64,000 bases of DNA from Mariniblastus sp. (GTDB taxonomy: Bacteria; Planctomycetota; Planctomycetia; Pirellulales; Pirellulaceae): positions 1 through 64,000 of the forward strand of contig JABACA010000008.1 in assembly GCA_014237975.1 (NCBI GenBank), in the 5' to 3' direction. Numbering within the stretch: the stretch's first letter is position 1; every line of letters begins with the position of its first letter. Positions 45,141-62,339 of this stretch are shown one piece after another. The position numbers and the translations under genes are program-made. The notes under the pieces are model-generated. The model ran no database searches and was not told where the DNA came from. It saw only the letters and a program-made list of their open reading frames with translations.

Positions 45141-46286
45141 ATGCCTGAACGTCAAGAAACTCGTCTTCCTGAAAACCACCAAGCCAATTGGTATCCCCCC
45201 TGGGCTCCCCGTTTTTGGAACGGGATGCGGATGCTGGATTACTGGAGGCTACTGCATGCCAATCAGTTTCGAATCCATCCAACACGGCTGCCGATGGCCT
45301 TTATGGTCGGTTGCTGCACCGTGATTAATTCATGCCTGTCCGCCATGCAAACGCTCTGCTATGAGCGCACCATTCGCAACTCGAAATTCGATAGTCCACC
45401 CGTCTTTATTGTGGGGCACTGGCGCAGCGGCACAACCTTGCTGCACGAGTTGATGTCTCTTGATCCACGCATGGCGTTCCCCAACAACTATGAAGTCTTT
45501 GTCCCGCATCATTTCCTTGTATCCAAGGTGGTTCTACAGCCACTCATTCTGCTTTTGCTGCCACCGACGCGACCGATGGACAGGATGCCGATGCGAGTCG
45601 AATTGCCACAAGAAGATGATTTTGCACTATGTGCCATGGGTGGACCGACGCCGTATCGCAGAATCGCGTTCCCGAACCAGCCCAATGACGATTATCTCCA
45701 GCTGGATACGGACAACCTGAGGGAAGACCAGGAAACGGAACTCTTTAAGTGCCTGAACAAATTCTACCGGGCATTGACGGTTCGCCACAAAAAGCAATTG
45801 GTCCTCAAGTCGCCTCCCCACACCGGTCGGATCGCCAAACTCGCCAAATGGTTCCCGGGCGCCAAGTTCATCCACCTCAGTCGCGACCCTAACCAGTTGG
45901 TTCCATCCACCATCCGACTCTGGCAGACACTGGACCAAGTCCAGGGGTTTCAGCCAGCAAAATACGATAACGATTGGTTACTGGAGTATATTCGCAAGAA
46001 CAAAGAAATCATGTATGGCAGTTACTTGCGAGACCGCGCCCAATTACCGGCTGATCAATTGGTCGAAGTCAAATTCGAAGAACTGGTTGCCGACCCGCTG
46101 GCGCAGATGCAGGCCATCTATGAGCAACTGGAACTGGGTGATTTTGAATTAAACCGGGACAATATCAAACAGTATTTTGAACGCCGTGGTGATCACAAGA
46201 AAAACGAAAACAAGCTCAATCCGGCATTGGAATCCTGGATTGACACGAACTGGCACGATTACAAACAGCAATTCGGTTACCAGTAG
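45141..46286 (+). CDS. Sulfotransferase family protein
   Basis: PVFIVGHWRSGTTLLHELMSLDPRMAFPNNYEVF (5'-PSB loop); AKFIHLSRDPNQLVPSTIRLW (3'-PB region). Confidence 0.9.
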   Translation: MPERQETRLPENHQANWYPPWAPRFWNGMRMLDYWRLLHANQFRIHPTRLPMAFMVGCCTVINSCLSAMQTLCYERTIRNSKFDSPPVFIVGHWRSGTTLLHELMSLDPRMAFPNNYEVFVPHHFLVSKVVLQPLILLLLPPTRPMDRMPMRVELPQEDDFALCAMGGPTPYRRIAFPNQPNDDYLQLDTDNLREDQETELFKCLNKFYRALTVRHKKQLVLKSPPHTGRIAKLAKWFPGAKFIHLSRDPNQLVPSTIRLWQTLDQVQGFQPAKYDNDWLLEYIRKNKEIMYGSYLRDRAQLPADQLVEVKFEELVADPLAQMQAIYEQLELGDFELNRDNIKQYFERRGDHKKNENKLNPALESWIDTNWHDYKQQFGYQ

Positions 46287-46488: not shown

Positions 46489-49434
46489 ATGTGCCACTTA
46501 CATTTCAATGCCCGTATCTTGTTGGGCGCGCGCGCCGCACTGATGGCGGTCATGCTGCTATGGAGCGGTTGGCTGGTTGCGGATGAGCCATTGAAATACA
46601 ACCGGGAGATTCGCCCCATCCTGGCCAAGCACTGCTTTGTCTGTCATGGTCCCGACGAAGGCTCTCGTCAAGCCGGCTTGCGACTGGATGATCGCGCGGC
46701 CGCGATAGAGATGAAGGCGATCCAGCCAGGCAGGCCCGCTCAAAGTGGTTTGGTTGAGCGTATTCAATCGACCGATCCGGAGAGCGTCATGCCACCTGCG
46801 GATTCAGGTCACTCGCTCAGTGCCGACGAAATCAAACGCTTGCGGCAATGGGTCGCCGAGGGAGCGAAATACGAAGTACACTGGTCTTTTACCGCGCCAA
46901 AAAAAGCGGATCCTCCCACGAACCAGGCCGACGGGTCCAATCACCCCGTCGACCGTTTTGTTCTCCGTCATCTCGAAGCTGCCCAGCTCAGCCCGACAGC
47001 CGAAGCGGACCGGCTGACCTTGATTCGCCGATTGTCCTTGGATCTTACCGGGCTTCCCCCAACGGTCGAAGAAGCCGACGCATTCGCTGCGGATCGTTCT
47101 CCCGAGGCCTATGAAACGGTGGTGGATCGCCTGTTGGCCTCCGATGCCTACGGCGAGCATTGGTCCAGGATGTGGCTCGATTTGGCGCGGTACGCCGACA
47201 CCAAGGGCTACGAAAAGGACCGGCCCCGTACGATCTGGCGATACCGCGATTGGGTGATCGATGCCTTCAACCACGACATGCCTTACGATCAATTTACGAC
47301 AGAACAATTGGCGGGCGACCTGCTTTCCAGCCCGACAAACGAACAGTTCCTGGCGACTGCCTTTCATCGTAACACGATGGAAAACGACGAGGGTGGCACC
47401 GACGACGAAGAATTTCGTGTGGCGGCCGTCAAGGATCGGGTGGATACGACACTTCAGGTCTGGATGGGTTTGACGATGGGGTGTGCCAAGTGCCATTCGC
47501 ACAAGTACGATCCGATCAGTCAACACGCTTACTACCAGATGTATGCACTGTTTAATCAAACCGAAGACGCGGACCGCGAACAACCATTGTTGAAAACACC
47601 GACGCGCGAGCAGCAGGACCAGATCCAACGACTCGAAGGCGAGCTCAAGACACTCCAACAGGCATTGGCTGACCGGCCGCCCGGTTATGCCGAGGCCTTT
47701 TCCGATTGGCAAGCCAAATTTAAAGGCCGACCGCTTTGGGCGCCCCTGCTCTATTCGGGGTTTGAATCCACCCAGGGGATCGTGTTGACCCAGGATGATC
47801 AGGGCATTTTGCTGGTGGACCAGGAACTGCCTGAAAAAGACACCTGGAAACTGACGCTCCAGCTGCCACCGGGGCAGCCACTTACTTCGATCCGCATCGA
47901 TACATTCCCCAAGCCAAAGGGTGGGAAGTGGAACGACAAGAATGTTGTCCTGAATGAATTCAAGGTCGAGCTGATTGAACCGGGTCAGGATCCGGTACCC
48001 TGCAAACTGGCGCGTCCCCGGGCGGACTTTTCCCAGCGGGACTGGCCGGTGGCCAAGGCGATTGATGGCCAAGCCAGCTCGGGCTGGGCCTTTTCACCCC
48101 AAGCGGGCCAGGCCCACGCTGCCGTCTTCGATTTTGAACAACCGATCGAACCGGGAACAGGTCGACAATTGCGACTGACACTCCAACAGCAATACGGCGC
48201 CGGCTTGCTACTCAAACGTTTTCGAATTTCGGCCAGCAACTACCCTGTCTCGTGGTTGGCAGCGGAAGTTAAGATTCCCAGCACAGAGACCCTCTTTGAG
48301 ACCAAGGTCTTCCCCGCCACGCGGCAGCTTCACGCAAACATTGCCGCGAAACGCCAAGAGATTACGCGTGTTCGCCAGGCCGTCCCCTCGACGCCCGTCA
48401 TGCGGGAGCTGGCAGCCGACAAACGTCGTCAAACGAGAATCCATGTGCGAGGCAACTTCCTGGACCTGGGCGATCCTGTCGAGGGAAGCGTGCCGGAAGG
48501 GTTTGGTCGGTTCGATGCTGCCTGGCCCCAAAATCGGCTGGGCGTTGCCCGTTGGTTGATAAACTCCGCCAACCCCCTGACGAGCAGGGTGGCCGTCAAT
48601 CGTATCTGGGCTCAGCTTTTTGGCCGTGGGTTTGTTGAGACGGAAGAAGATTTTGGGACGCAGGGGACCCTGCCCTCTCACCCGGAGTTGCTGGATTGGT
48701 TGGCAGTCGATTTCCAGGAAAATGGCTGGTCGTTAAAGCGGCTCCTGAAAACGATCGTAATGTCACGGACCTATCGTCAAAGCTCGCATGTTAGCCCGCA
48801 ACAGCTTGAGATCGATCCAGGCAACCGCCTGTTATCGCGCGGCCCGCGTTTCCGCCTGTCGGCAGAGATTGTCCGTGATCAAGCGATGGCCGTATCCGGT
48901 TTGCTGACGCGGCAAATCGGGGGGCCCTCGGTCATGCCACCCCAGCCGGGCGGGATTTGGAAATCGACTTACAGCGGCGAGAAATGGAAGAACGCGACGG
49001 GGGCCGATCGCTACCGACGGGCCCTTTACACTTATAAAAAACGGACGAGTCCCTACCCGGCCATGCTCACATTTGATTCAGGCAGTGGTGAAGTTTGCCA
49101 GATCCGACGGGTGCGGACCAATACACCCCTGCAGGCGTTGGTGACACTCAACGATACGGTTTATGTCGAGGCCGCCGGGGCGCTGGCAACACGCATGGAG
49201 CATTCGGCCAGCACCTCGCGGGACCGAATCGCCAACGGTTTTCGGATGGTTCTTGTGCGGCACGCCGATCCCAAGGAGCTTGACCGATTGGTCGCGCTGT
49301 ACGATTCGCTAGAGACCGAACTGACGGATGGCGACGCGCTGCTCAAGTCGGCCGGATTGACCGAAGGGGATCCTCGGCTTGTCGCCGTGGCGAATGTTCT
49401 GTTGAACCTGGATGAAACCTTGATGAAACAATAG
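46489..49434 (+). CDS. Planctomycete cytochrome c / DUF1549 / DUF1553 domain protein
   Basis: KYNREIRPILAKHCFVCHGPDEGSRQAGLRLDDRAAA; RRLSLDLTGLPPTVEEADAF; LGLTMGCAKCHSHKYDPISQHAYYQMYALFNQTEDAD; NRIWAQLFGRGFVETEEDFG. Confidence 0.95.
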   Translation: MCHLHFNARILLGARAALMAVMLLWSGWLVADEPLKYNREIRPILAKHCFVCHGPDEGSRQAGLRLDDRAAAIEMKAIQPGRPAQSGLVERIQSTDPESVMPPADSGHSLSADEIKRLRQWVAEGAKYEVHWSFTAPKKADPPTNQADGSNHPVDRFVLRHLEAAQLSPTAEADRLTLIRRLSLDLTGLPPTVEEADAFAADRSPEAYETVVDRLLASDAYGEHWSRMWLDLARYADTKGYEKDRPRTIWRYRDWVIDAFNHDMPYDQFTTEQLAGDLLSSPTNEQFLATAFHRNTMENDEGGTDDEEFRVAAVKDRVDTTLQVWMGLTMGCAKCHSHKYDPISQHAYYQMYALFNQTEDADREQPLLKTPTREQQDQIQRLEGELKTLQQALADRPPGYAEAFSDWQAKFKGRPLWAPLLYSGFESTQGIVLTQDDQGILLVDQELPEKDTWKLTLQLPPGQPLTSIRIDTFPKPKGGKWNDKNVVLNEFKVELIEPGQDPVPCKLARPRADFSQRDWPVAKAIDGQASSGWAFSPQAGQAHAAVFDFEQPIEPGTGRQLRLTLQQQYGAGLLLKRFRISASNYPVSWLAAEVKIPSTETLFETKVFPATRQLHANIAAKRQEITRVRQAVPSTPVMRELAADKRRQTRIHVRGNFLDLGDPVEGSVPEGFGRFDAAWPQNRLGVARWLINSANPLTSRVAVNRIWAQLFGRGFVETEEDFGTQGTLPSHPELLDWLAVDFQENGWSLKRLLKTIVMSRTYRQSSHVSPQQLEIDPGNRLLSRGPRFRLSAEIVRDQAMAVSGLLTRQIGGPSVMPPQPGGIWKSTYSGEKWKNATGADRYRRALYTYKKRTSPYPAMLTFDSGSGEVCQIRRVRTNTPLQALVTLNDTVYVEAAGALATRMEHSASTSRDRIANGFRMVLVRHADPKELDRLVALYDSLETELTDGDALLKSAGLTEGDPRLVAVANVLLNLDETLMKQ

Positions 49435-49443
49435 CGAGCCAGC

Positions 49444-50943
49444 ATGACACTACCTATCCCTCTCCAACAGACGCGCGCCATCAGCCGGCGACATTTTTTT
49501 GGCCAGGCCGGGCTCGGTTTTGGCTCGATCGCGCTCAGCTCGTTACTTGCGCGGGATGGCCATGCAACCGATACTGACTGGAAAATCCCGGCCAAAGCGA
49601 AATCGATCATCTACCTGCATATGGCCGGTTCGCCCTCACAGCTCGAGCTGTTTGATCCGAAGCCGGCCCTGAACAAGCTTCACAATACGGAATGTCCTCA
49701 GGAATACCTGGATGGCAAACGATTTGCCTTTATCCGCGGTGTGCCCAAGATGTTGGGGGCGCAGTCCAAGTTCCAACAGCATGGCGAGAACGGCCAGTGG
49801 TTGGGGCATCATTTACCGCACCTGGCCAAGATCATCGACGAACTTTGCGTGATTCGATCAGTCCACACAGACCAGTTCAATCATTCGCCAGCCCAATTGT
49901 TGATGCAGACGGGCAACCCGCTTCTCGGTTACCCGGCCATCGGTTCCTGGGTGACCTACGGCTTGGGGAGTGAGAACGAGAATCTTCCAGGATTCATGGT
50001 CCTCTCATCCGGTGGGAAAACGCCGAGCGCAGGAAAATCACTGTGGGGCAGTGGCTTCCTGCCAACCGTCTATCAAGGCGTGCAATGCCGCACCGATGGA
50101 GGTGACCCCATCCTGTTTCTTTCCAATCCCAAGGGCCTGTCGAGGAATGCCCGCCGCAAAACGCTCGATGCGATTGGCGATCTAAACCGGTATCAACACA
50201 ATCACATTGGGGATCCTGAAACGATGACCCGGATTGCCCAATACGAACTCGCTTTTCGCATGCAGGTTTCCGTTCCCGAAGTGATGGATATTAGCCGGGA
50301 AACGAAGGAGACACTCGAACATTACGGAGCGAAGCCGGGACATGTCTCCGAAGCGGAATCGGCGGCTGACCCGAGACGGTTGTACAAAGGGGATGACCCG
50401 ACATTCGCCAATAATTGTCTGTTGGCCAGGCGGCTGGTAGAGAATGGCGTACGTTTTGTACAGTTGTATGACTGGGGCTGGGATCACCACGGTTCGTCTC
50501 CCGGTGAATCGATCGATGAAACACTTCCTATCAAATGCGCCCAAGTGGATCGCGCCATCGCCGCCCTCATAACCGACCTTAAGCAACGTGGCTTATTGGA
50601 CGAGACCCTGATCGTATGGGGAGGAGAATTCGGCCGAACGCCGATGATGCAAAACAATGTGAACAAGGAATTGAAGAAAGGTTTCTACGGTAGAGATCAT
50701 CATCCCCACGCCTTTACCATGTGGATGGCCGGAGGAGGCGTCAAACCAGGGGCGTACGGTCAAACGGATGACATCGGGTACTACATCGCGGAAAACCCGG
50801 TCGGCGTGCGGGACTTGCAAGCGACCATCCTGCATCAGATCGGCATCGATCCCCACCGTTTCAGCTTTCCGTATCAGGGACTCAACCAACGGTTGATTGG
50901 GCCGACCGACGAAGGCAAAGTAATCCGCGATCTATTGATATAG
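49444..50943 (+). CDS. DUF1501 domain-containing protein
   Basis: SRRHFFGQAGLGFGSIALSSLLA; YLHMAGSPSQLELFDPKPAL; YDWGWDHHGSS; LIVWGGEFGRTPMMQ...GRDHHPHAFTMWMAGGGVKPG. Confidence 0.96.
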   Translation: MTLPIPLQQTRAISRRHFFGQAGLGFGSIALSSLLARDGHATDTDWKIPAKAKSIIYLHMAGSPSQLELFDPKPALNKLHNTECPQEYLDGKRFAFIRGVPKMLGAQSKFQQHGENGQWLGHHLPHLAKIIDELCVIRSVHTDQFNHSPAQLLMQTGNPLLGYPAIGSWVTYGLGSENENLPGFMVLSSGGKTPSAGKSLWGSGFLPTVYQGVQCRTDGGDPILFLSNPKGLSRNARRKTLDAIGDLNRYQHNHIGDPETMTRIAQYELAFRMQVSVPEVMDISRETKETLEHYGAKPGHVSEAESAADPRRLYKGDDPTFANNCLLARRLVENGVRFVQLYDWGWDHHGSSPGESIDETLPIKCAQVDRAIAALITDLKQRGLLDETLIVWGGEFGRTPMMQNNVNKELKKGFYGRDHHPHAFTMWMAGGGVKPGAYGQTDDIGYYIAENPVGVRDLQATILHQIGIDPHRFSFPYQGLNQRLIGPTDEGKVIRDLLI

Positions 50944-51101: not shown

Positions 51102-51866
51102 TCACTTTCGGCCATTCAGCTGACGATGCAGCCGCCTTCGCTTGTTGATGATCTGCGGATCACCGCTCTGGCTGCGTTGCTCATCACGCAGCTGCTGGTC
51201 CGTCATGCGAAGCCGCTGATGAAATGAGAAGTACTCAATCACAAAATCGAGCAATGACATCCCCAGCAACACCACGGCGACCACCAAGCACGACCCGAAA
51301 ACAAACCGTGACAGCGCATCGACCATCGGTGACAACGACAACATCGTGGATTCAAGCAACTCATCGCAACGGTACCACAGGATCAGCGAGGTCGTCACAA
51401 AAACGACCGTTAACTTGGGAACCCCCAATACGCTTCGAGACAATCCCCGCAGGGAAAACAACTGTTTCCACCAGTGCATCGGCGATAATCGACTGGGATC
51501 TGGAACGGCAGACTTTGCGACCCACATGGGGCCCGTTTGCAGGTAATGCGACAAAATCCCGACGACCAGGATCATACCCAACAGTGGCAGGATGCCGGAG
51601 CCAGCCGCGATGATCCCCTGTCGAACATCCTCATTAAACACCGTCGAATTATACTCACTGCCCAGTCGCTGGCTGCTCCAGGTTTCGCTGGCAAAATCCT
51701 GCAGTCGCTGTCCCATCATCGAGAACAGGAACCAACATGCGGCAATACTAAACACCAGTTGCAGGGATGCCGACAACTCCTGGCTCTTGGCAACCTGTCC
51801 GCTCTGCCTGGCCTGCTGCAGGTGAATGACCGAGGCAGGGTGAACAGCATCATCATGATGGCTCAT
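51102..51866 (-). CDS. flhB: FlhB N-terminal membrane domain only (C-terminal autocleavage domain absent)
   Basis: QQARQSGQVAKSQELSASLQL; LSPMHWWKQLFSLRGLSRSVLGVPKL; DFVIEYFSFHQRLRMTDQQLRDEQRSQSGDPQIINKRRRLHRQLNGRK*; no NPTH before the stop or in other frames up to 50941. Confidence 0.82.
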   Translation of the reverse strand: MSHHDDAVHPASVIHLQQARQSGQVAKSQELSASLQLVFSIAACWFLFSMMGQRLQDFASETWSSQRLGSEYNSTVFNEDVRQGIIAAGSGILPLLGMILVVGILSHYLQTGPMWVAKSAVPDPSRLSPMHWWKQLFSLRGLSRSVLGVPKLTVVFVTTSLILWYRCDELLESTMLSLSPMVDALSRFVFGSCLVVAVVLLGMSLLDFVIEYFSFHQRLRMTDQQLRDEQRSQSGDPQIINKRRRLHRQLNGRK

Positions 51867-51876
51867 AGCAATTTCC

Positions 51877-52632
51877 TTACGCCGAGTTTTGAAGAGCGTT
51901 TTTCAGCAATTGGATTGATGACTGAATATCATCAACAAACAGCCAAATACACCCTCCCAAAGTCAGAAAAATGGCCAGCAGCATGACGATCAAGTTGGAG
52001 GACAGTCCCACCTGTAAAATGTTGACTTGGGGTAGCGAACGTGACACCATGCCAATCACGACGGTCGCAATCAGAATGGCACCCATCGCCGGGGCGACTG
52101 CCCGCAGGGAGAGAACAAAACTCTGGTGCAATAGAGTTACGCAAAGTTCCAGCAGGTTTTGCGTATCGATCGGAGCCCCCAATGGTAACGCCTGGAAAGA
52201 CCCCAGCACCGATGCGATCAGCATTTCGGGTCCGCCAATCAAAACAAAAATGGCAGCGGAAAGAATCGCAAACATTCTCCCCATCGTGGATTGGCCACTT
52301 GTCTGAGCTCCAGAAAACGTATCGACCTGAAGTCCGGCCATCTGGCCAATCAGTGTACCCGCCGATTCGGCAGCCGAGTAAATAATCAAAACACCAAGCC
52401 CCATCATCGTCCCAATAACCACTTCGGACAGCATGGCCGAAAGCAGGCCTCCCCAGTGATCCGGCGCATCGCTCGGCATTTTAGTCAAGGGAAGTGCTAC
52501 CAGTGAAATCATGAGACTGCCCACGACACGGATCATCAGCGGGATCTGGCGACTCCCCAACACGGGTGCTGACAATACCATCGACAGAACTCGAACCGTA
52601 ATCAACAAGTAGGTCGTTGTTAAAACGATCAA
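51877..52632 (-). CDS. fliR: Flagellar biosynthetic protein FliR
   Basis: LLITVRVLSMVLSAPVLGSRQIPLMIRVVGSLMIS; GTLIGQMAGLQVDTFSGAQTSGQ; RSLPQVNILQVGLSSNLIVMLLAIFLTLGG. Confidence 0.92.
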   Translation of the reverse strand: MIVLTTTYLLITVRVLSMVLSAPVLGSRQIPLMIRVVGSLMISLVALPLTKMPSDAPDHWGGLLSAMLSEVVIGTMMGLGVLIIYSAAESAGTLIGQMAGLQVDTFSGAQTSGQSTMGRMFAILSAAIFVLIGGPEMLIASVLGSFQALPLGAPIDTQNLLELCVTLLHQSFVLSLRAVAPAMGAILIATVVIGMVSRSLPQVNILQVGLSSNLIVMLLAIFLTLGGCIWLFVDDIQSSIQLLKNALQNSA

Positions 52633-52910
52633 GGCTTGCCATCCATCCCGATTAAGAACGGGGATTCCATCATTGATGCGCTGTACTCAACCATGTAATC
52701 GGTCAACCATGGCAGGCTGATGGCGAGCACAATCGTAATCAAGATGATCTTGGGAACAAACGAAACCGTTTGGTCCTGGATATGCGTCATCGATTGCAGG
52801 ACACCAACCAGGATGGCAATCAGCAAACCAATTACCAGAACGGGGCCTCCCACCATTAAACAGACCAAGATGGCATTTTGACCCGTTTCGACAGCGTCTT
52901 GAGGTTCCAT
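52629..52910 (-). CDS. fliQ: Flagellar biosynthetic protein FliQ
   Basis: GGPVLVIGLLIAILVGVLQSMTHIQDQTVSFVPKIILITIVLAISLPWLTDYMVEY. Confidence 0.95.
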   Translation of the reverse strand: MEPQDAVETGQNAILVCLMVGGPVLVIGLLIAILVGVLQSMTHIQDQTVSFVPKIILITIVLAISLPWLTDYMVEYSASMMESPFLIGMDGKP

Positions 52911-52962: not shown

Positions 52963-53898
52963 CTAAGTAAACGGTGCAAAACTCTGCAACAACATTCCGA
53001 CAACCAGATTCCACCCGTCGACCATGACAAACAAGATGAGTTTCAAAGGAAAACTAACCATGGTCGGTGGGAGCATTAACATGCCCATCGAAACGGTAAC
53101 CGTTGACACAACGAGATCCAGGACAAGAAAAGGCAAATAGATCTGGAATCCCAGCAAAAAAGCCACTTTTAGTTCACTCACGAGAAATGCGGGCAACAGA
53201 ACGTTGACCGGTACTTGTTCCAAGCTCGTGGGTCGAGTCATTTCTTCATTGCGGGGAAGATATTTATAAAACAGGGCGATCGATTCTTTGTTGTCTGCAA
53301 TTTCGATCTGCTTTGCCATGAATTTCTTGACCGGAACCAATCCTCGAGCCCACGCCTCGTCCCAGCTGATGGTTTCCGAATTGGAGTAAGGGTCAATCGC
53401 TTGCTGCTTGACTTCATTCCAGACAGGCATCATGACCAACAAGGTAATGAACAACGACAATGCAGTTAAAACCTGGGTGGGTGGCAATTGTTGACCACCA
53501 AACGCCTGACGCAACAAGCTCAATACAACGATGACACGAACATAACAGGTTGTCATCAATACCAGCGCGGGTGCCAGGCTGAGTGCCCCGAGAAGTATCA
53601 GTGCTTTGATCGATGAGCCAGAATTTTCTCGCGAAACGAGGTTTTTTGCTTCGGAAGCGATTAGATCGGTCAACGAGGAACCCGTCTGCGGTTGCTCGAC
53701 GGCTGGTTCGTCCCGATCATCGGGCAGCTCGATCGACATCGGGCTGTTGGCAATCCTGGGACTTTCATCGAGAGATTGTGCCCATACCAAGTCGCATCCT
53801 GCACCCCATGCCAACGGGACGATAAGAACCAGACATCGCCGCAATAACACGGCCAATCGTCGAATGGCCCATGGAGCTAGGGAAGTATTTGAGTGCAT
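52963..53898 (-). CDS. fliP: Flagellar biosynthetic protein FliP
   Basis: LMTTCYVRVIVVLSLLRQAFGGQQLPPTQVLTALSLFITLLVMMPVW; VLLPAFLVSELKVAFLLGFQIYLPFLVLDLVVSTVTVSMGMLMLPPTMVSFPLKLILFVMVDGWNLV. Confidence 0.96.
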   Translation of the reverse strand: MHSNTSLAPWAIRRLAVLLRRCLVLIVPLAWGAGCDLVWAQSLDESPRIANSPMSIELPDDRDEPAVEQPQTGSSLTDLIASEAKNLVSRENSGSSIKALILLGALSLAPALVLMTTCYVRVIVVLSLLRQAFGGQQLPPTQVLTALSLFITLLVMMPVWNEVKQQAIDPYSNSETISWDEAWARGLVPVKKFMAKQIEIADNKESIALFYKYLPRNEEMTRPTSLEQVPVNVLLPAFLVSELKVAFLLGFQIYLPFLVLDLVVSTVTVSMGMLMLPPTMVSFPLKLILFVMVDGWNLVVGMLLQSFAPFT

Positions 53899-53912
53899 GA
53901 ATAGTGTCCTGA

Positions 53913-54743
53913 TCACGCCTCGAAGACCGAACCGTTGGGTTGCGAGCGAACGACATTTTGTAGCTGCTGCAGAACGTCTCTTAAGTTATCCGCGGCTGGC
54001 GGTGCGGGCTGTTGGTCCGCCATGGTGGAACGATTTGGTTGGTTGGCCGGAACACTTACAGGACGGGCAACAGGATGGCTGACCGTTTGTTTCCGTCGTT
54101 TGACGGTGCATAACGAAGCGAGATACTCCACCTCTTGCGGGTCGGACACTTCGCCAATCAACTGCGAACCCTCGGCACTGTTAATCAACAGCAGCAGTTT
54201 GCTGCCCAGGCGAATGACCTGCAGGTGTTTCTTGGGTCCAAACGGTGTTGCACCCAGAACTTCGACAACTTCAACCGGCAATCCTCGTGACGAGGTAGGA
54301 TTGATTTTGCGTAACAGCCAAACAATTCCAAAATAGCCTCCCAACACGATTGCCAACGATCCCAGCATCTTGGCCAAATCCAGGTCGGCAAATTGTCCAC
54401 TGACGCCAGCGAGGAAACTGCTATCCGAGTTTTCTGCTTCCACAAGCTCAGCAAAAATCTCATCCGAAACGGTGAAATCTTCAACCGCTGGAATGTCGCT
54501 TGCAAGCGATTCCGCGCCAGCCTGGTCGACGGACCCATCCTGCGGGATTTCCATTGGCTGGAAATCGGCCGGTGCAACATGAGTATCTTCGTGAACCGAC
54601 GATGTATCTTGTGCGTCGAAAGAAGGTTCGAATTCTTGCTGAGCGGACAGCATGCTGTCGCAGGACAGGAATACCAATGCCGCTACGATGGCGAGCCATG
54701 GCCGTATTCTAACGGATGCAATATTTTTAAAAATCGACTTCAT
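53913..54743 (-). CDS. fliO: FliO-like flagellar biosynthetic protein
   Basis: Single TM (LAIVLGGYFGIVWLLRK) followed by LPVEVVEVLGATPFGPKKHLQVIRLGSKLLLLINSAEGSQLIGEVSDPQEVEYLASL; directly upstream of fliP. Confidence 0.82.
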   Translation of the reverse strand: MKSIFKNIASVRIRPWLAIVAALVFLSCDSMLSAQQEFEPSFDAQDTSSVHEDTHVAPADFQPMEIPQDGSVDQAGAESLASDIPAVEDFTVSDEIFAELVEAENSDSSFLAGVSGQFADLDLAKMLGSLAIVLGGYFGIVWLLRKINPTSSRGLPVEVVEVLGATPFGPKKHLQVIRLGSKLLLLINSAEGSQLIGEVSDPQEVEYLASLCTVKRRKQTVSHPVARPVSVPANQPNRSTMADQQPAPPAADNLRDVLQQLQNVVRSQPNGSVFEA

Positions 54744-54888: not shown

Positions 54889-56460
54889 TCAAGCAAAGTC
54901 GCGCAGCCAGCTTTTAATCACCTTGGCAGCCGTCTCCGGGTCCCGGTCGATTAGATTTGCCAACTTTGATTTTAGTTCTTCGCTGTCAGTTGGATCATAA
55001 TCCGATGCATTGGACGTCGATTCCGCAGACGGATGCAAGTCGGGAACTCGCATGATATTGAACAGCACACTGATGAACCCAAGCAATCCAACTGCCAACA
55101 GTGGCCAATGACGTTTTGCACTGTTTCTTAACCAATTCCATGTCTCGGCGCTGGCCTGGTCACCCGAGGGCTCACCCTCCAAAACCACCGCAACGGGTAA
55201 CTCATTCTGAGCAACCGCATTTGGCAGAATGGGATTCACACGTTTAATAATATCGTCCTTGATCAGTTTAAATTTACTGTCCGCAGATTTGACAGTCACA
55301 TTGGCCGAGTCCGTTGGACATCGCATGGTTCCCAATAATCTAGCGGGAATCCGAATGATGACATGGACGCTTTCCGTAGCGGAACCCTTTGGTTCGGCGT
55401 GCCGTTCATTGGACTCGTTCAGTCGATCGACTGAATCTGCGGTTTCCAGATGGCCAACCAACTTGGTAACCACTGGAAAGACGTTAATAGCAGCCGTTCC
55501 GTTGGCTCCAGGAACAGCAGTTTTCAAAGCCCTGGGCAGCGCCGCATTGACGTCTTTGGTTGGAATGCGACTTGCGATGCCAATCGGTTCTGCCGGCTTC
55601 AGTCCGCGCGGTTGAACCTGGTTGTGCAAAGTCAGCTTGTCAGATCCCGGGTGATCACCGTTCTGCTCGACATGAACATCGATTTCAATACCGGGATATT
55701 CAACGAGGATGCGTTCAATTTTCTTCATGTAATACCGCTGTCGATCGATGCGCCAACGCGCCGACTGGGCATGTACATTCCCATTAACGGAATCTTCTGG
55801 ATGAGCCCGACCCTCGTTTAAATCGGTCAACACAATATCTTCGGGTGAAAGCCCGGAAAAAGCACCGGCGATCGTTTCTCGTATCGTGGAAATATTGTCC
55901 CACGAGAGAATTTGTTCCGACTTTGGCTGGACAACCACCACGGCTGACATTTTCACAGGCTCAAAGATACCGTTGCAACCAGAATCACACTCCAACCATG
56001 CCTCATCGACGTAAGGCAGCCTGACAATCATATCCATCACTTCACGACGTTTCCTCAGCTTCGCAATCCGTTCACGCTCGCTGGGGGCCAGAAGAAAATT
56101 CGATTTCAGGGAGTCATCCTGCCGGGTACCAAACCCCGGTATTCCGTGTTTTTCAAGTGCCGAATAGTATTTTTGTTTGAGCATATTGGGAACCATGATA
56201 CTGCCATTTACCAACTCATAGTCCCGCAGTCCTTCAATATTCAGTGCCCTGACAATCTCCTGTGTTTGGCTCGGTCGACAAGGTTCCCCGTCTAGCAAAT
56301 CAGAGCGCATGATTTCTTTTTGGAAATTCGAAAAGTGCAGCGCCGTCAGCAGGCCCATCAGCAAGAGGATTCCAAAGGTCGCCCGGCGGTGGCGAGGGCG
56401 TAGCCATTGAGCCAGCTTGTCGGTGATTTGTTGTGATGAATCCAAGTGGGCCGCTCCCAT
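54889..56460 (-). CDS. fliF: Divergent FliF-like MS-ring protein
   Basis: Two TM helices flanking a large periplasmic region; FLLAPSERERIAKLRKRREVMDMIVRLPYVDEAWLECD RBM-like; C-terminal FliG-binding tail SKLANLIDRDPETAAKVIKSWLRDFA. Confidence 0.82.
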   Translation of the reverse strand: MGAAHLDSSQQITDKLAQWLRPRHRRATFGILLLMGLLTALHFSNFQKEIMRSDLLDGEPCRPSQTQEIVRALNIEGLRDYELVNGSIMVPNMLKQKYYSALEKHGIPGFGTRQDDSLKSNFLLAPSERERIAKLRKRREVMDMIVRLPYVDEAWLECDSGCNGIFEPVKMSAVVVVQPKSEQILSWDNISTIRETIAGAFSGLSPEDIVLTDLNEGRAHPEDSVNGNVHAQSARWRIDRQRYYMKKIERILVEYPGIEIDVHVEQNGDHPGSDKLTLHNQVQPRGLKPAEPIGIASRIPTKDVNAALPRALKTAVPGANGTAAINVFPVVTKLVGHLETADSVDRLNESNERHAEPKGSATESVHVIIRIPARLLGTMRCPTDSANVTVKSADSKFKLIKDDIIKRVNPILPNAVAQNELPVAVVLEGEPSGDQASAETWNWLRNSAKRHWPLLAVGLLGFISVLFNIMRVPDLHPSAESTSNASDYDPTDSEELKSKLANLIDRDPETAAKVIKSWLRDFA

Positions 56461-56463
56461 TGC

Positions 56464-56976
56464 CTAGCCTGCTTTTCGTACCGCAAAGCGAGGAATCACC
56501 AATACATTGGCGGTACCTCCCTGTGGACATTCCCAAGTTTGCACCTGCCCACCATGGATCATCGCCGCCGAGTTTGCGATCTCCAGATGCTCTTGAACGC
56601 ACATTCCCTGCAAACGAATTGGCTCGTTTTCCGGATTAAAGTCCGGTTCGGTGGGAGGTAATACATCTGCCGAACGTGTATCCGCAATTTCCAGCTCCCA
56701 CTGGTGTCGGCAATCTACCAGGGTGACCAGCAATTCACCGCCGGACGGCATCGAGTCAATCGCGTTCTCAATCAGATTCGCAACGGCTCGATGAATCGCC
56801 TCCGGAAAAACGTCGGCTGTGACATTCGGCAAATCCGTTTCTACACGAATATTGTGTTGCTCAAACCTGCTCGTAAAAGAAGCAACCAAGTCTTTCGTCA
56901 AACTGTTTATTTCGATCGAAGTCTTAGTCGACTTTTTTCCCATTCCGGAACCTGACGACTCATTTTTCAGATGCAT
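56464..56976 (-). CDS. GHKL (histidine-kinase-like ATPase) fold protein with degenerate ATP-binding boxes
   Basis: N-box-like AVANLIENAIDSMPSGGELLVTL; no HisKA dimerisation domain in the ORF; C-terminal IHGGQVQTWECPQGGTANVLVIPR typical of the end of a HATPase_c domain. Confidence 0.72.
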   Translation of the reverse strand: MHLKNESSGSGMGKKSTKTSIEINSLTKDLVASFTSRFEQHNIRVETDLPNVTADVFPEAIHRAVANLIENAIDSMPSGGELLVTLVDCRHQWELEIADTRSADVLPPTEPDFNPENEPIRLQGMCVQEHLEIANSAAMIHGGQVQTWECPQGGTANVLVIPRFAVRKAG

Positions 56977-57192: not shown

Positions 57193-57942
57193 CTAGTCGG
57201 TGACTGCAGTCTGGATCATATCCATGATCCAGCAATTGACATCTGATAGCATGGAATCCACCAGTTGGTCATCCCCGGGATATTGCCGCAAGGTGACTGA
57301 AAAACCGGCGATGTGCAGCAGACGGAGCTGTTGGCATAGCTTGGATTGATCAAAGGTAATCGAATTTCGGCAATGGGCCCAAAACAACTCCAGACGACGG
57401 CATTTTTTCCAGTCGCTCAACGGAGTATGGGTTTCAGGTATTGGTCCGTTGATCGAAATCAAACCCGCAAATAAATCAGGTTTTTCAAAGGCAATTCGGT
57501 AGGCCATTGTCCCGGCAGCACCAAAACCACCAATAAAAATCTTGTCCGGCGCAATATTGAACCGCATCATGGCTCGATCGATAGCACTCGTCACCGACGC
57601 ATGAGCGGCTTCGATGCACGATCTTGTTTGTTCCCAATAAAAACCTCGTACTGAGTCACCGACGACCGACTGCGGCGCCACAGCAGCGTAGTTCCTCAGG
57701 CTGAGGCCAGGCATGACATTCTGAATCTGCTCGGAAGTACTGCCATCGCTGTGCAACCAGACCACCAAGGGGTATTGATAGGTCTTCGCGTAGTGCAGTG
57801 GCACAAACAACGAACAATCTGCGGCGGCGTCAGGGAGTCCGGCAAGGTTTTCAGAAGCCAAACTTGCCAGCTTCTCTCCAACCTGAGAGGTCGCCTTGTT
57901 TAAAGAAGCACTAGCCAGCGGGCTGATCTTGATTCTATTCAT
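57193..57942 (-). CDS. Esterase/polyhydroxybutyrate depolymerase-like alpha/beta hydrolase
   Basis: YQYPLVVWLHSDGSTSEQI; DKIFIGGFGAAGTMAYRIAFEKPDLFAGLISINGPIP (GGFGAAG replaces the usual GxSxG). Confidence 0.75.
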   Translation of the reverse strand: MNRIKISPLASASLNKATSQVGEKLASLASENLAGLPDAAADCSLFVPLHYAKTYQYPLVVWLHSDGSTSEQIQNVMPGLSLRNYAAVAPQSVVGDSVRGFYWEQTRSCIEAAHASVTSAIDRAMMRFNIAPDKIFIGGFGAAGTMAYRIAFEKPDLFAGLISINGPIPETHTPLSDWKKCRRLELFWAHCRNSITFDQSKLCQQLRLLHIAGFSVTLRQYPGDDQLVDSMLSDVNCWIMDMIQTAVTD

Positions 57943-58216: not shown

Positions 58217-59194
58217 CTAAAGCAGGTCTTTGACGGCCTCTCGTTCCTCATTGAGTTCGTTCATAGTGGCCTGCATCCGCTGTTGGCTAAAATCATCGAT
58301 CTCCAAACCTTGCACTATGGCATACTCTCCATCCTGGCAGGTCACCGGGAAGGAATAGATCAGGCCCTCGGAAATCCCATAACTACCGTCACTCGACACG
58401 GCCATACTGACCCAGTCGCCATGACGAGAGCCAAGCATCCAATCATGGATATGATCAATGGCAGCATTGGCAGCCGACGCAGCGCTGGAGGCGCCACGAG
58501 CCTTGATAATCTCTGCGCCTCGTTGTTGCACGGTCGGTATAAACGTCTCCTGATACCAAGCTTCCTCTACCAGATCCGCGGCGGCATTCCCGTTAATAAT
58601 CGTTTTTGAAATATCCGGGTACTGTGTCGCAGAGTGATTACCCCAGATCGTCATATGGTAAACGTCTAGCGATGCGGCATCTGTCTTCAAGGCCAGTTGG
58701 CTGATCGCCCGATTATGATCCAAGCGGGTCATCGCTGTGATTTGCCGTGGATTGATATCGGGAGCGTTGGCCATCGTGATCAGTGCATTGGTATTGGCTG
58801 GGTTGCCAACAACCAGAACCCTGATATTCCGGTTTGCGTTTTCGTTGATCGCTTTGCCCTGCACCGAGAAGATCTTGGAGTTGGCTTCCAATAGATCCTT
58901 GCGCAACATTCCCTGTTTGCGCGGCATGGCGCCGACCAACAGTCCGAATTCAGCGTCGGCAAAAGCTGTATTCGGATCGTCGGTGGCCACAATATCCTGC
59001 AACAACGGAAAAGCGCAATCATGCAATTCCATTACAACGCCCCTCAATGCATCCATCGCCGGTGGAATCTCCAGCAATTGGAGAATCACTGGTTGGTCTG
59101 GTCCAAGCATATCGCCTGCGGCAATCCGAAATAGTAATCCGTAACTGATTTGACCGGCTGCCCCGGTAACGGTTACGCGTACAGGATCTTTCAT
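58217..59194 (-). CDS. mdh: Malate dehydrogenase
   Basis: [101 protein letters not shown]. Confidence 0.97.
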
Positions 59195-59410
59195 ATCTTC
59201 CCTTATCAAAAGATGGAGATTGTCGGCATCGACTTTCAATCTTCCCAAGCACAATTCAAACAAATCCTCACGGTCCGATTTCCCGACAACCGTTTGGAAG
59301 AACCAAATGCCGAACCCGCGAATATCGCCAAGCCGCTGTCCGATTTCAAGTGGGGACGCTTGTTCTCGACCGTTTATCCCCTGCTAGAATCTCAAACTTG
59401 CCAATCCTGG

Positions 59411-60880
59411 CTAACTTTCAGGCGGGACGCCGATCCCACCCGAGCCTTTCCCCTCATCGGCTGCTTTCTCGTTCGTCTCCAAGGGGGTCGGTTTCAGATC
59501 GTCCTGGAATTCGTGAAACCGACCATGCATAGGATTTTTCTGCCGCTGGTCGGACCGGTGGAAATACCAGATCAACCCGGCAATGCCGAGCCCGACAACA
59601 CCTAACACCGTCAACAAAAAGTTATCAATCGAATGTTTGGAGCTGTTACTGATTCTGGGTTCAATCCCTATAACGAGTGGGCTGACCTGCCCCAAGGAAG
59701 GGTGTAATCGCGAGGTAAACTCGGAGTCGTAGTTCCAGAATTTCATGAAAAATCCATCGATCGTCACTCGCTTACCCCGGATTTCCTCGATCGTTCCCGG
59801 CAATCGTGGTACGCATACGGTTGCTGGAAAACGGTTTTTGTAAACCACGTCTTCCGTCTCAGCCGACGCATCATCTGGCGTTTGGCTTTTGATCACGATC
59901 CGGCTATCGCCCAAGGGGATAAACATGTCCAGTTCGTAATAGTAATCCAGGCCCAATCGTTCACGAACCGCTTTGCGATCGATATAGATTCTTACCGCGC
60001 GTTTGACATGGCCTGTAAACTGAACGGCCCCACCAAAATGGTCCTTGGGGTTTTCCAGCAATTCCACGAATCCTATCTGGTTTCCCTTAAAATCATTCGG
60101 CGTCAAACGTTCCACTGCGTCCAATAGCTGAAAAAAACAACTCGAGTCACTTTCCGTAATCGCCCGATTATTATTTTGCTTTACGAATTCAAATTGCCCA
60201 ATATCGACGCCATTGCGGGCCAACAGGAGATGACTTTCGTTGACGCCAGCAACCGCACCAACCCGATCCGGAAACCAGCCCATTCGATCCGTTACAAACA
60301 ACGGAGCCAGGGAAACGCCTGCTGTCAGTTCACCGGTCGGCGCTGTTTCGGCAGGATCAGAAAAATCAACGACTGCCTGGAAAAATCCTCGACATCGAAA
60401 TGGCTCATCCATGGAGGTACGGACGGGCCACACCCGGGGCACAGAGCAAGCGGCAACCATAAATGACTTACCCGTATCTGATTCAACACGGGCTAAATAA
60501 AACCCTTTGATTTTTGAATTTTCGTACTTCTCCGGCAAACGAATCGGATAGACCATTTTTACCCTGCCCGTTAATTCAAAAACCTGAAACCGATATTTTT
60601 GAGGATTGTCCTCGATCGCCTGCAGGCCAATACCGCGCGTGTACTCGGCATAACGTTGCCAACTTTCCGGGGAAGCATTGGCAGCCCGCAACAGCAACCG
60701 GATCATGAATTCATCGGAGGCCGAAAACTGCGACTCATCAATAACATCGTATAACTCACTCGGCTCAAATCCGGAAAGGGCCGAGGGTAGTTCCTGCTGG
60801 GCGGCGGATGAGCCGGAAATGAGCAGCGCCAGGCTAAAACCGGCAAGCCAAGCTGAGACAACCCGTTTCCCGCTATTCAT
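59411..60880 (-). CDS. Hypothetical exported membrane protein with repeated beta-rich (OB-like) modules
   Basis: Signal sequence, C-terminal TM (FLLTVLGVVGLGIAGLIWYF); modules YRFQVFELTGRVKMVYPIRLPE..., GGAVQFTGHVKRAVRIYIDRKAV...; related to next gene. Confidence 0.7.
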   Translation of the reverse strand: MNSGKRVVSAWLAGFSLALLISGSSAAQQELPSALSGFEPSELYDVIDESQFSASDEFMIRLLLRAANASPESWQRYAEYTRGIGLQAIEDNPQKYRFQVFELTGRVKMVYPIRLPEKYENSKIKGFYLARVESDTGKSFMVAACSVPRVWPVRTSMDEPFRCRGFFQAVVDFSDPAETAPTGELTAGVSLAPLFVTDRMGWFPDRVGAVAGVNESHLLLARNGVDIGQFEFVKQNNNRAITESDSSCFFQLLDAVERLTPNDFKGNQIGFVELLENPKDHFGGAVQFTGHVKRAVRIYIDRKAVRERLGLDYYYELDMFIPLGDSRIVIKSQTPDDASAETEDVVYKNRFPATVCVPRLPGTIEEIRGKRVTIDGFFMKFWNYDSEFTSRLHPSLGQVSPLVIGIEPRISNSSKHSIDNFLLTVLGVVGLGIAGLIWYFHRSDQRQKNPMHGRFHEFQDDLKPTPLETNEKAADEGKGSGGIGVPPES

Positions 60881-62339
60881 GGCGCTCTCGTCGATTGCTG
60901 CTATGGGGGTCGACATCGGCGTGAGGGTCTTCATGCAACCGATGGTTCTCGTGTAACTCCTCCACCCGCTGAACATCCGATTTGATCGATTGATTCTGCG
61001 TCAGGTCTCCCAGGTCTTCTACCAACTGCTTCTCGGATTTGGCCGAGATCGTGTGGGGTGAAGTCTTGGTCATTTGGTAGACCCCAATGGCAATGCACAC
61101 GGCAACCAGTGGCATCACTACGAGAAATGCAACTAACATCCAAACCGGAGGCTGCCAGATTGACGGTGCAACTATTGTTTTGAGCGGAATAAGTTCACAG
61201 GTTTTGGCCAGAATCAGCGGACAGATTGCCATTTCCCGTTCTGTCGTTTCGTAGCTGCGGAGCTTAAAAAAAATACCCTTAACCCGGACCGTTTCCGACA
61301 AGGCAGTAAATTGGTTGTCCACCTGAGACAACGCGGTTGGCAAATCAAGGCAATAGACGCAGTACGGTGACACATTGGAATCAGCCGGCTGAATCCACAA
61401 GACGTAATAGTGATCAAAACCTAACTCATTCTTGCGAACTTCAATTTTATTTGCCCCGCGGATCGTACCGCTGATTTCGACCCATCGCCCCCGATAACTC
61501 TCCGGTTGGCTCAGTAATTGAATATGGGAAATCAATGAATCCGGATCTTCCAATTCGGTATCCGGTTTGCCAACCTGAATACGCTCCCAGGTTCTCAACC
61601 ACGCCGGACCATCGGCCGACCGGACTACGGGTGTGCGATCGCGAATCATTTCATAAGTTGTTTGGTCAATGATGGCTTGCACGTCACCAAGTATCTCAAG
61701 CTGCTCTGCATCGAGTGGCTTGCCTTGGATACCGTCCATTGCGGCCGTCTTGAATTTTCTCCAATGATCCTGAAAGTCCACCAATTGCTGGCTAAGGATC
61801 ATTTTATGTTTTGACGCCGGACCGAGCAGTGAAATTTCGCCAAGGAGGTCCGCTTGAGAATCGTTACCGAACCCTTCAATTTTATCGATCAGCTGCTTAA
61901 ATGCCGGGTCCATTTCTTGACCGGCAGAACCCTGTTTCAACCCTTGTCGCAAGACCTGGTTAAGTTTTTTTTTCTGCTTCAGTGACAAGTTTCGGTAGGA
62001 ACTTTTCCAGAATCGATCAGTAAATGAAACGTCGTTCTTTGGTCGAGCCCGGTCTGATTCAGAATCAATGACATCGGCTGGATCCCGGGAATCCTCCGTC
62101 GGGATCGTCTGTTGGGCTGTGGGTGCAATCTCAACAGGCCCGTTCCCAGCAGGTGTCTCTCCGAGCCCCAACCAGGCCCATCGCTCCGGTTTTTGCGCCT
62201 CTTTCATGGCAATTAACACCAGCACAAGCGCGGCAAACAAACTCATTAAACGCAATTTGGTGGGGCGAGTGGTAAAAACGGCTTTGGGTCTACTGGGCTC
62301 CCGTTGAGGGTCTGCTTCCGGCTGGATGTCGATTCTCAT
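60873..62339 (-). CDS. Hypothetical membrane protein related to 59411-60880
   Basis: N-terminal TM (LRLMSLFAALVLVLIAMKEA), C-terminal TM; module GRWVEISGTIRGANKIEVRKNELGFDHYYVLWIQP; start of the next gene overlaps its 3' end. Confidence 0.72.
   Translation of the reverse strand: MRIDIQPEADPQREPSRPKAVFTTRPTKLRLMSLFAALVLVLIAMKEAQKPERWAWLGLGETPAGNGPVEIAPTAQQTIPTEDSRDPADVIDSESDRARPKNDVSFTDRFWKSSYRNLSLKQKKKLNQVLRQGLKQGSAGQEMDPAFKQLIDKIEGFGNDSQADLLGEISLLGPASKHKMILSQQLVDFQDHWRKFKTAAMDGIQGKPLDAEQLEILGDVQAIIDQTTYEMIRDRTPVVRSADGPAWLRTWERIQVGKPDTELEDPDSLISHIQLLSQPESYRGRWVEISGTIRGANKIEVRKNELGFDHYYVLWIQPADSNVSPYCVYCLDLPTALSQVDNQFTALSETVRVKGIFFKLRSYETTEREMAICPLILAKTCELIPLKTIVAPSIWQPPVWMLVAFLVVMPLVAVCIAIGVYQMTKTSPHTISAKSEKQLVEDLGDLTQNQSIKSDVQRVEELHENHRLHEDPHADVDPHSSNRRERHE

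Follow-up and report, generated by a model that had tools for sequence, protein, structure and literature searches.

The window, that is, the whole stretch of 64,000 nucleotides analysed here, carries a cluster of flagellar export genes on its minus strand. The flhB gene (51102-51866, minus strand; PF01312) codes for a protein of 254 aa reduced to the transmembrane domain, the gate loop and the cytoplasmic linker, without the C domain. Adjacent to it are the export gate genes fliR (51877-52632; PF01311, E = 1e-42), fliQ (52629-52910; PF01313, E = 5e-22) and fliP (52963-53916; PF00813, E = 2e-67), and the syntenic fliO, coding for a gate assembly factor (53913-54743; PF04347, E = 2.5e-6), all on the minus strand. 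The FliP protein passes the NCBIfam profile of flagellar FliP (TIGR01103, 227 versus a cut-off of 217.45 bits) and fails that of the injectisome type (TIGR01102, 168 versus 208.6 bits); judged by these scores, the export system is flagellar and not injectisome-like.

Further along the minus strand lies a fliF-like gene for a strongly diverged MS-ring protein (54889-56460; PF01514, E = 2.7e-9, below the TIGR00206 cut-off), which is syntenic in many relatives. It is followed by a gene for a lone HATPase-domain protein (56464-56976, minus strand; PF02518, E = 1.3e-6), conserved beside fliF; this protein has no clear histidine phosphotransfer domain, and it is a fliF neighbour in several genomes. 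Two conserved, syntenic neighbours on the same strand code for an esterase-like alpha/beta hydrolase (57193-57942; PF02230) and a malate/lactate dehydrogenase (58217-59263; PF00056/PF02866), the latter being probably not part of the export machine. The set ends with memA (59411-60976, minus strand), conserved in 5 genomes, and memB (60873-62339, minus strand), also conserved, whose products are membrane proteins without any Pfam or NCBIfam match. These adjacent paralogues (59411-62339) are conserved together with the export cluster. The gene order upstream of flhB, from fliR to memA/memB, recurs in many relatives.

On the other side of flhB, a sulfotransferase gene (45141-46286, plus strand; PF13469, E = 1.6e-32) has a putative tie to the export system: about 13 family genomes have such a gene close to the cluster, next to either flhB or flhA (e.g. 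L037, L038, L039, L044 and L049). We know of no connection between sulfation and the export gate. In the window, a DUF1549/1553-type and DUF1501 gene pair (46489-50943) separates flhB from the sulfotransferase gene. Since the latter directly adjoins flhB in L040, L044, L048 and L049, the pair resembles an insertion here. The flhA gene of relatives has its own neighbours, namely flhF and a gene for a FliA-like sigma factor, whose products in flagellates place or regulate the organelle.

An intact flhB reading frame without the C domain

The flhB reading frame is intact, running from an ATG start to a TGA stop. The Bac_export_2 profile (PF01312) matches residues 11-251 of the protein with its positions 7-240 of 335 (E = 2e-49), and residues 5-250 align with residues 7-251 of a solved FlhB of 383 aa (36hu). 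The transmembrane domain with the gate loop is thus present, by both the profile match and this alignment. The aligned region spans the gate-wrapping loop, continues into the cytoplasmic linker (...MTDQQLRDEQRSQSGDPQIINKRRRLHRQL) and ends just ahead of the autocleaving domain, with the usual cleavage Asn lying about 15 residues beyond the end of the window protein. The autocleavage site Asn-Pro-Thr-X and the cytoplasmic C domain are absent, and TIGR00328 scores 140 bits against a cut-off of 349. The preliminary description of this locus, which had reported a FlhB without its autocleaving C-terminal domain, is therefore borne out. Its further statement that a simple frameshift does not explain the short protein also holds. 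Only about 160 bp separate the flhB stop from the convergent DUF1501 gene, insufficient for the roughly 95 missing residues, and translation of this gap in three frames revealed no NPTH-like or C-domain sequence, which rules out both a frameshift and an overlooked C domain beside flhB.

The C domain could instead be encoded elsewhere and act in trans. Such an arrangement has some precedent in other planctomycetes, where stand-alone FlhB C-domain ORFs of 106-113 aa are found (G217:C154:85-303 and G324:C7:119718-119933), though the former is close to the start of its contig and could be fragmentary. This split FlhB, suggested earlier for the locus, is nevertheless very improbable. This genome (5.0 Mb in 404 contigs, 94.8% complete) contains a single PF01312 match, and no second complete flhB was found in it. 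Furthermore, a 12-row C-domain profile, run at E values up to 10 on 20 genomes with truncated FlhB (this one and 19 others), returned only the residual linker and weak, partial chance matches, and no stand-alone C domain.

Hardly credible is an assembly or sequencing artefact, or a truncation by local rearrangement beside the DUF1501 gene, even though the DUF1549/1553-DUF1501 pair lies directly downstream of flhB here and not in relatives with the same cluster. FlhB ends at this point in about 15 genera of the family, with differing downstream neighbours, and the truncated form also occurs in a single-contig genome (G036) and in the isolate Stieleria tagensis TO1_6. Neither decay after a local rearrangement nor an assembly error, both raised before, can be upheld against this recurrence, and at the same locus in the nearest relatives FlhB is not full-length either.

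FlhB states and rod/hook genes in relatives

Comparison of 80 genomes of the same family revealed four states of FlhB: full-length with NPTH, full-length with NPTE (in one case NPTQ), a C domain that has lost Asn-Pro-Thr, and no C domain at all; L043 (G009), whose FlhB meets a contig end, was left out of the counts. The motif-less C domains, one step of a graded series, read, for instance, SPTE, TPGG, IDPN, AGRS, TSTI, IAGT or TDGS. The truncated proteins stop no more than about 10-25 residues from the linker helix, and their genes usually lie within a conserved fliF-fliO-P-Q-R-flhB cluster. Truncated FlhB extends beyond the family to the planctomycete families f4, f5, f18, f60, f65 and f68. 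As a separate observation, most full-length FlhB proteins of the family (L002-L031 and L146-L164) carry NPTE, or NPTQ in one case, instead of NPTH, and rods are present in those genomes.

The state of FlhB follows the presence of rod/hook proteins (PF06429), which were found in 55 of the 80 genomes. When only genomes with a readable FlhB motif are considered, Asn-Pro-Thr is intact in 50/51 rod-positive genomes versus 2/24 rod-negative ones (Fisher p ~1e-15 by genome and ~1e-12 by genus, values that ignore shared ancestry); most of these genomes are drafts, none of the rod-less ones examined is known to be closed, and absence is called by HMM cut-offs. The single rod-positive exception, G015, has Asn-Ser-Thr (NST) and a single rod-type match instead of the usual five. 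The two rod-negative exceptions, G007 and G026, both retain NPTE; being rod-less with an intact motif, they suggest that the axial genes are lost first and that the FlhB domain decays later.

This association was then assessed on genomes taken from an independent FliP scan, in which FlhB was read first and rods were searched for afterwards. All six classified genomes (6/6) were as predicted, two more being left unclassified because their FlhB runs off a contig. Five rod matches were found in each of the two NPTE genomes, against none in the four with truncated or motif-less FlhB, among them the isolates Stieleria tagensis TO1_6 and Rhodopirellula solitaria CA85. The same held for the tested genomes of families f4, f5, f18, f60, f65 and f68 with truncated or motif-less FlhB, in which no rods were detected. 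The FlhB C domain has thus been lost or broken on repeated occasions, nearly always in species that have no flagellum, suggesting another job for the leftover gate.

The rest of the flagellar gene set agrees with this distribution. In the window genome (G000), no match was found to flagellin (PF00669) or to the rod/hook proteins (Flg_bbr_C, PF06429), five matches to the latter being typical of flagellated relatives. More generally, flagellin and Flg_bbr_C are found in 0/14 genomes without a readable intact FlhB versus 11/11 with an intact one. The alternative export switch proposed in the preliminary description is not needed, since without rod, hook and filament genes there is nothing to switch between. 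No FliI above the family cut-off was detected in G000 either; its best score, 215 versus 379.5 bits, is in the range of other rotary-type ATPases found in all genomes. FliI exceeds the cut-off in 2/14 genomes without a readable intact FlhB. It is retained in G024 and G038, in the clusters L104 and L107, and in families f18 and f65, so the idea that the truncated system is always ATPase-free was rejected.

The gate itself is kept. FliPQR and FlhA are both present in G000, where FlhA lies on another contig and is interrupted by its end; a full-length FlhA (PF00771) was found in 21 of the 22 genomes searched, G000 being the exception, and a loss of FlhA was accordingly rejected. For FliG, the part that meets the stator is FliG_C. 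The FliG proteins at L038:13070-13771, L042:4850-5518 and L037:5772-6425 have the N and M domains with little or no FliG_C, which is kept elsewhere; given this mixed picture, a general absence of the FliG C domain from truncated systems was rejected.

Some genomes (G036, G027, G049, G055, G012, G076 and others) have two export systems, an NPTH flagellum from a separate clade and a truncated or motif-less native gate. In family f18, truncated FlhB is encoded in a compact, ordered operon, fliF-fliH-fliI-fliJ-fliO-P-Q-R-flhB-flhA-flhF-flhG-fliA, without rods. A conserved gene for a PMT_2-like membrane protein follows this operon in L103, L107 and L108.

Repeated loss and residual constraint

The history of the truncation was examined on an IQ-TREE tree of 48 rows, built from concatenated FliP, FliQ, FliR and the FlhB transmembrane domain; the tree of FlhB alone was weak. 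On the concatenated tree, motif-less and truncated rows are nested among intact ones. The truncated label needs 9 changes, of which at least 4 are forced by well-supported branches, the exact count being unsure in view of long branches or odd composition in some rows. An uncultured Pirellula with truncated FlhB falls inside the NPTE clade of P. staleyi and G010 (100/97), R. solitaria and G045, which have lost the motif, stand beside the NPTE genome G011 (100/95), and the truncated G036 and S. tagensis lie within an NPTE-rich clade (100/100). Furthermore, the truncated G005 is the sister of G002/G069, in which the motif is lost (100/99). The window FlhB forms a group with two other truncated proteins, those of G047 and the congeneric G067 (96/97). 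A single ancient truncation is unsupported, given the several forced events on this tree. The NPTH rows, four in number, make up a single clade distinct from every other row (100/100), so two export systems can co-exist in one genome.

Repeated loss would also be expected if the export genes were merely a vestige, slowly decaying after the loss of the flagellum, with the FlhB C domain among the first parts to go, and the multiple independent losses on the tree fit such a course. So do the very diverged FliF, the partial absence of ATPase and C-ring genes (some lineages lack FliG, FliN and FliI) and a dN/dS higher than in flagellated relatives: for FlhB, it amounts to 0.32 in a close truncated pair versus 0.01-0.11 in intact NPTE pairs. 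The retention of the gate speaks against simple decay, however. FlhB is found in 25/25 rod-less genomes of the family and FlhA in 14/14 of those tested, and between G000 and G067, which are saturated or nearly so at synonymous sites, the shared reading frames are still open. In the truncated pair G005/G071, the one close pair available, purifying selection is seen: dN/dS is 0.12 for FliP, 0.12 for FlhA, 0.26 for FliR and 0.32 for FlhB, and an approximate count puts every one of these values significantly under 1. Constraint on the truncated systems is weaker, not gone. Moreover, the ordered operon of family f18 is kept without rods. Since all 25 rod-less genomes keep FlhB and the reading frames have stayed open at saturated synonymous divergence, slow decay appears rather unlikely as the whole explanation.

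A proposed remnant export gate and its relation to known systems

In solved structures, FlhB contributes its transmembrane domain and loop to the FliPQR gate as an integral component, while its C domain is attached by a flexible linker (PMC7064499). In Salmonella, the docking site for early substrates sits in the cleaved FlhB C domain. When that domain is deleted, or FlhB is cut short by a stop at residue 258, late export becomes possible in the absence of a hook, and export of early substrates is blocked (PMC13344023). This stop arose spontaneously in a strain without rod/hook genes, and the late mode seen once the domain was removed further depended on the absence of Fluke and on overexpression of the regulon (PMC13344023). 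By analogy, the window gate is probably locked in "late" mode, as with the Salmonella stop at 258. We infer such a gate, with cargo recognised by FlhA, because the truncation lies near the Salmonella residue and the rod/hook genes are absent.

We therefore favour, with some reservation, a remnant flagellar export gate that lacks rod and hook and no longer needs a switch, and that may be locked in late mode and serve another function. This type III gate would derive from the native flagellum of the family and would be composed of FliF, FliO, FliP, FliQ, FliR and FlhB from the locus, with FlhA encoded elsewhere in the genome. The FlhB transmembrane domain and the gate-wrapping loop would have been retained as structural parts of the pore. 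The C domain, which normally docks early (rod/hook) substrates and, once autocleaved, allows a switch to late ones, would have lost its purpose once the axial genes were gone. Its catalytic Asn-Pro-Thr would decay first and the whole domain would be dropped later, several times independently. Without it, the gate would reject substrates of the rod/hook type and remain in late mode, accepting FlhA-delivered cargo with the proton motive force as driver; in the absence of a rod, this cargo would be released into the periplasm.

Alternatively, the gate could be part of something other than an exporter, e.g. a scaffold tied to pili or surface attachment. In the non-flagellated Lysobacter enzymogenes OH11, parts of the export apparatus serve twitching (PMC7277350), and rosettes and thick polar fimbriae are known from S. 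tagensis, a carrier available in culture (PMC10541342). The FlhF and FliA-like sigma factor kept in relatives would suit such a role too. Still, FliP is well conserved and the FlhA cytoplasmic domain is kept, which fits export better, and a scaffold seems quite improbable. Extending the remnant-gate reading, we tentatively suggest that a bare flagellar export gate, without axial structure or switch, could constitute a Planctomycetota-wide secretion or envelope machine, evolved repeatedly from flagella by loss of rod, hook and filament and then of the FlhB switch domain, and exporting FlhA-recognised cargo.

FlhB autocleavage and its C domain are commonly regarded as fixed in every type III system. 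Here, nature has deleted this domain several times, almost only where no switching remains, which independently supports the notion that the role of the C domain lies in choosing between rod/hook and later substrates, and not in the pore as such. The gate appears to be kept for another reason in a large group of apparently non-flagellated bacteria; since the carriers include cultured isolates, the role of an export gate without a flagellum is directly testable. In the open-licence literature, we found no paper on planctomycete non-flagellar export systems.

One close counterpart is the flagellar type III export apparatus, which shares gate proteins and gene order with the window system and whose equivalog cut-off is passed by the window FliP. 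Unlike this apparatus, the window system has no rod, hook or filament genes, no FliI above the cut-off and no FlhB C domain. A Hat-like inner-membrane complex is likewise tied to flagellar export genes yet separate from the flagellum, and the species in figure 2 of that study include no planctomycete (PMC9380563). L. enzymogenes OH11 keeps its export apparatus without a flagellum, with flagellin export shown there; FliI is kept and required, unlike in the window genome, and the accessible portion of the paper reports no FlhB C-domain loss (PMC7277350). The NF-T3SS of Myxococcales is flagellum-derived, devoid of motility parts and was first called a relic, yet it is conserved; it is a separate lineage, and in the accessible portion of its source planctomycetes figure in the survey only among flagellated phyla and no loss of the FlhB switch domain is described (PMC3459982). 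The Salmonella mutant is similar in the extent of FlhB, with a stop at 258 versus a last residue equivalent to about 255 here and with rod/hook genes absent in both. That case is a laboratory mutant also lacking Fluke, whereas the planctomycete truncation is natural, inherited and found in many genera (PMC13344023).
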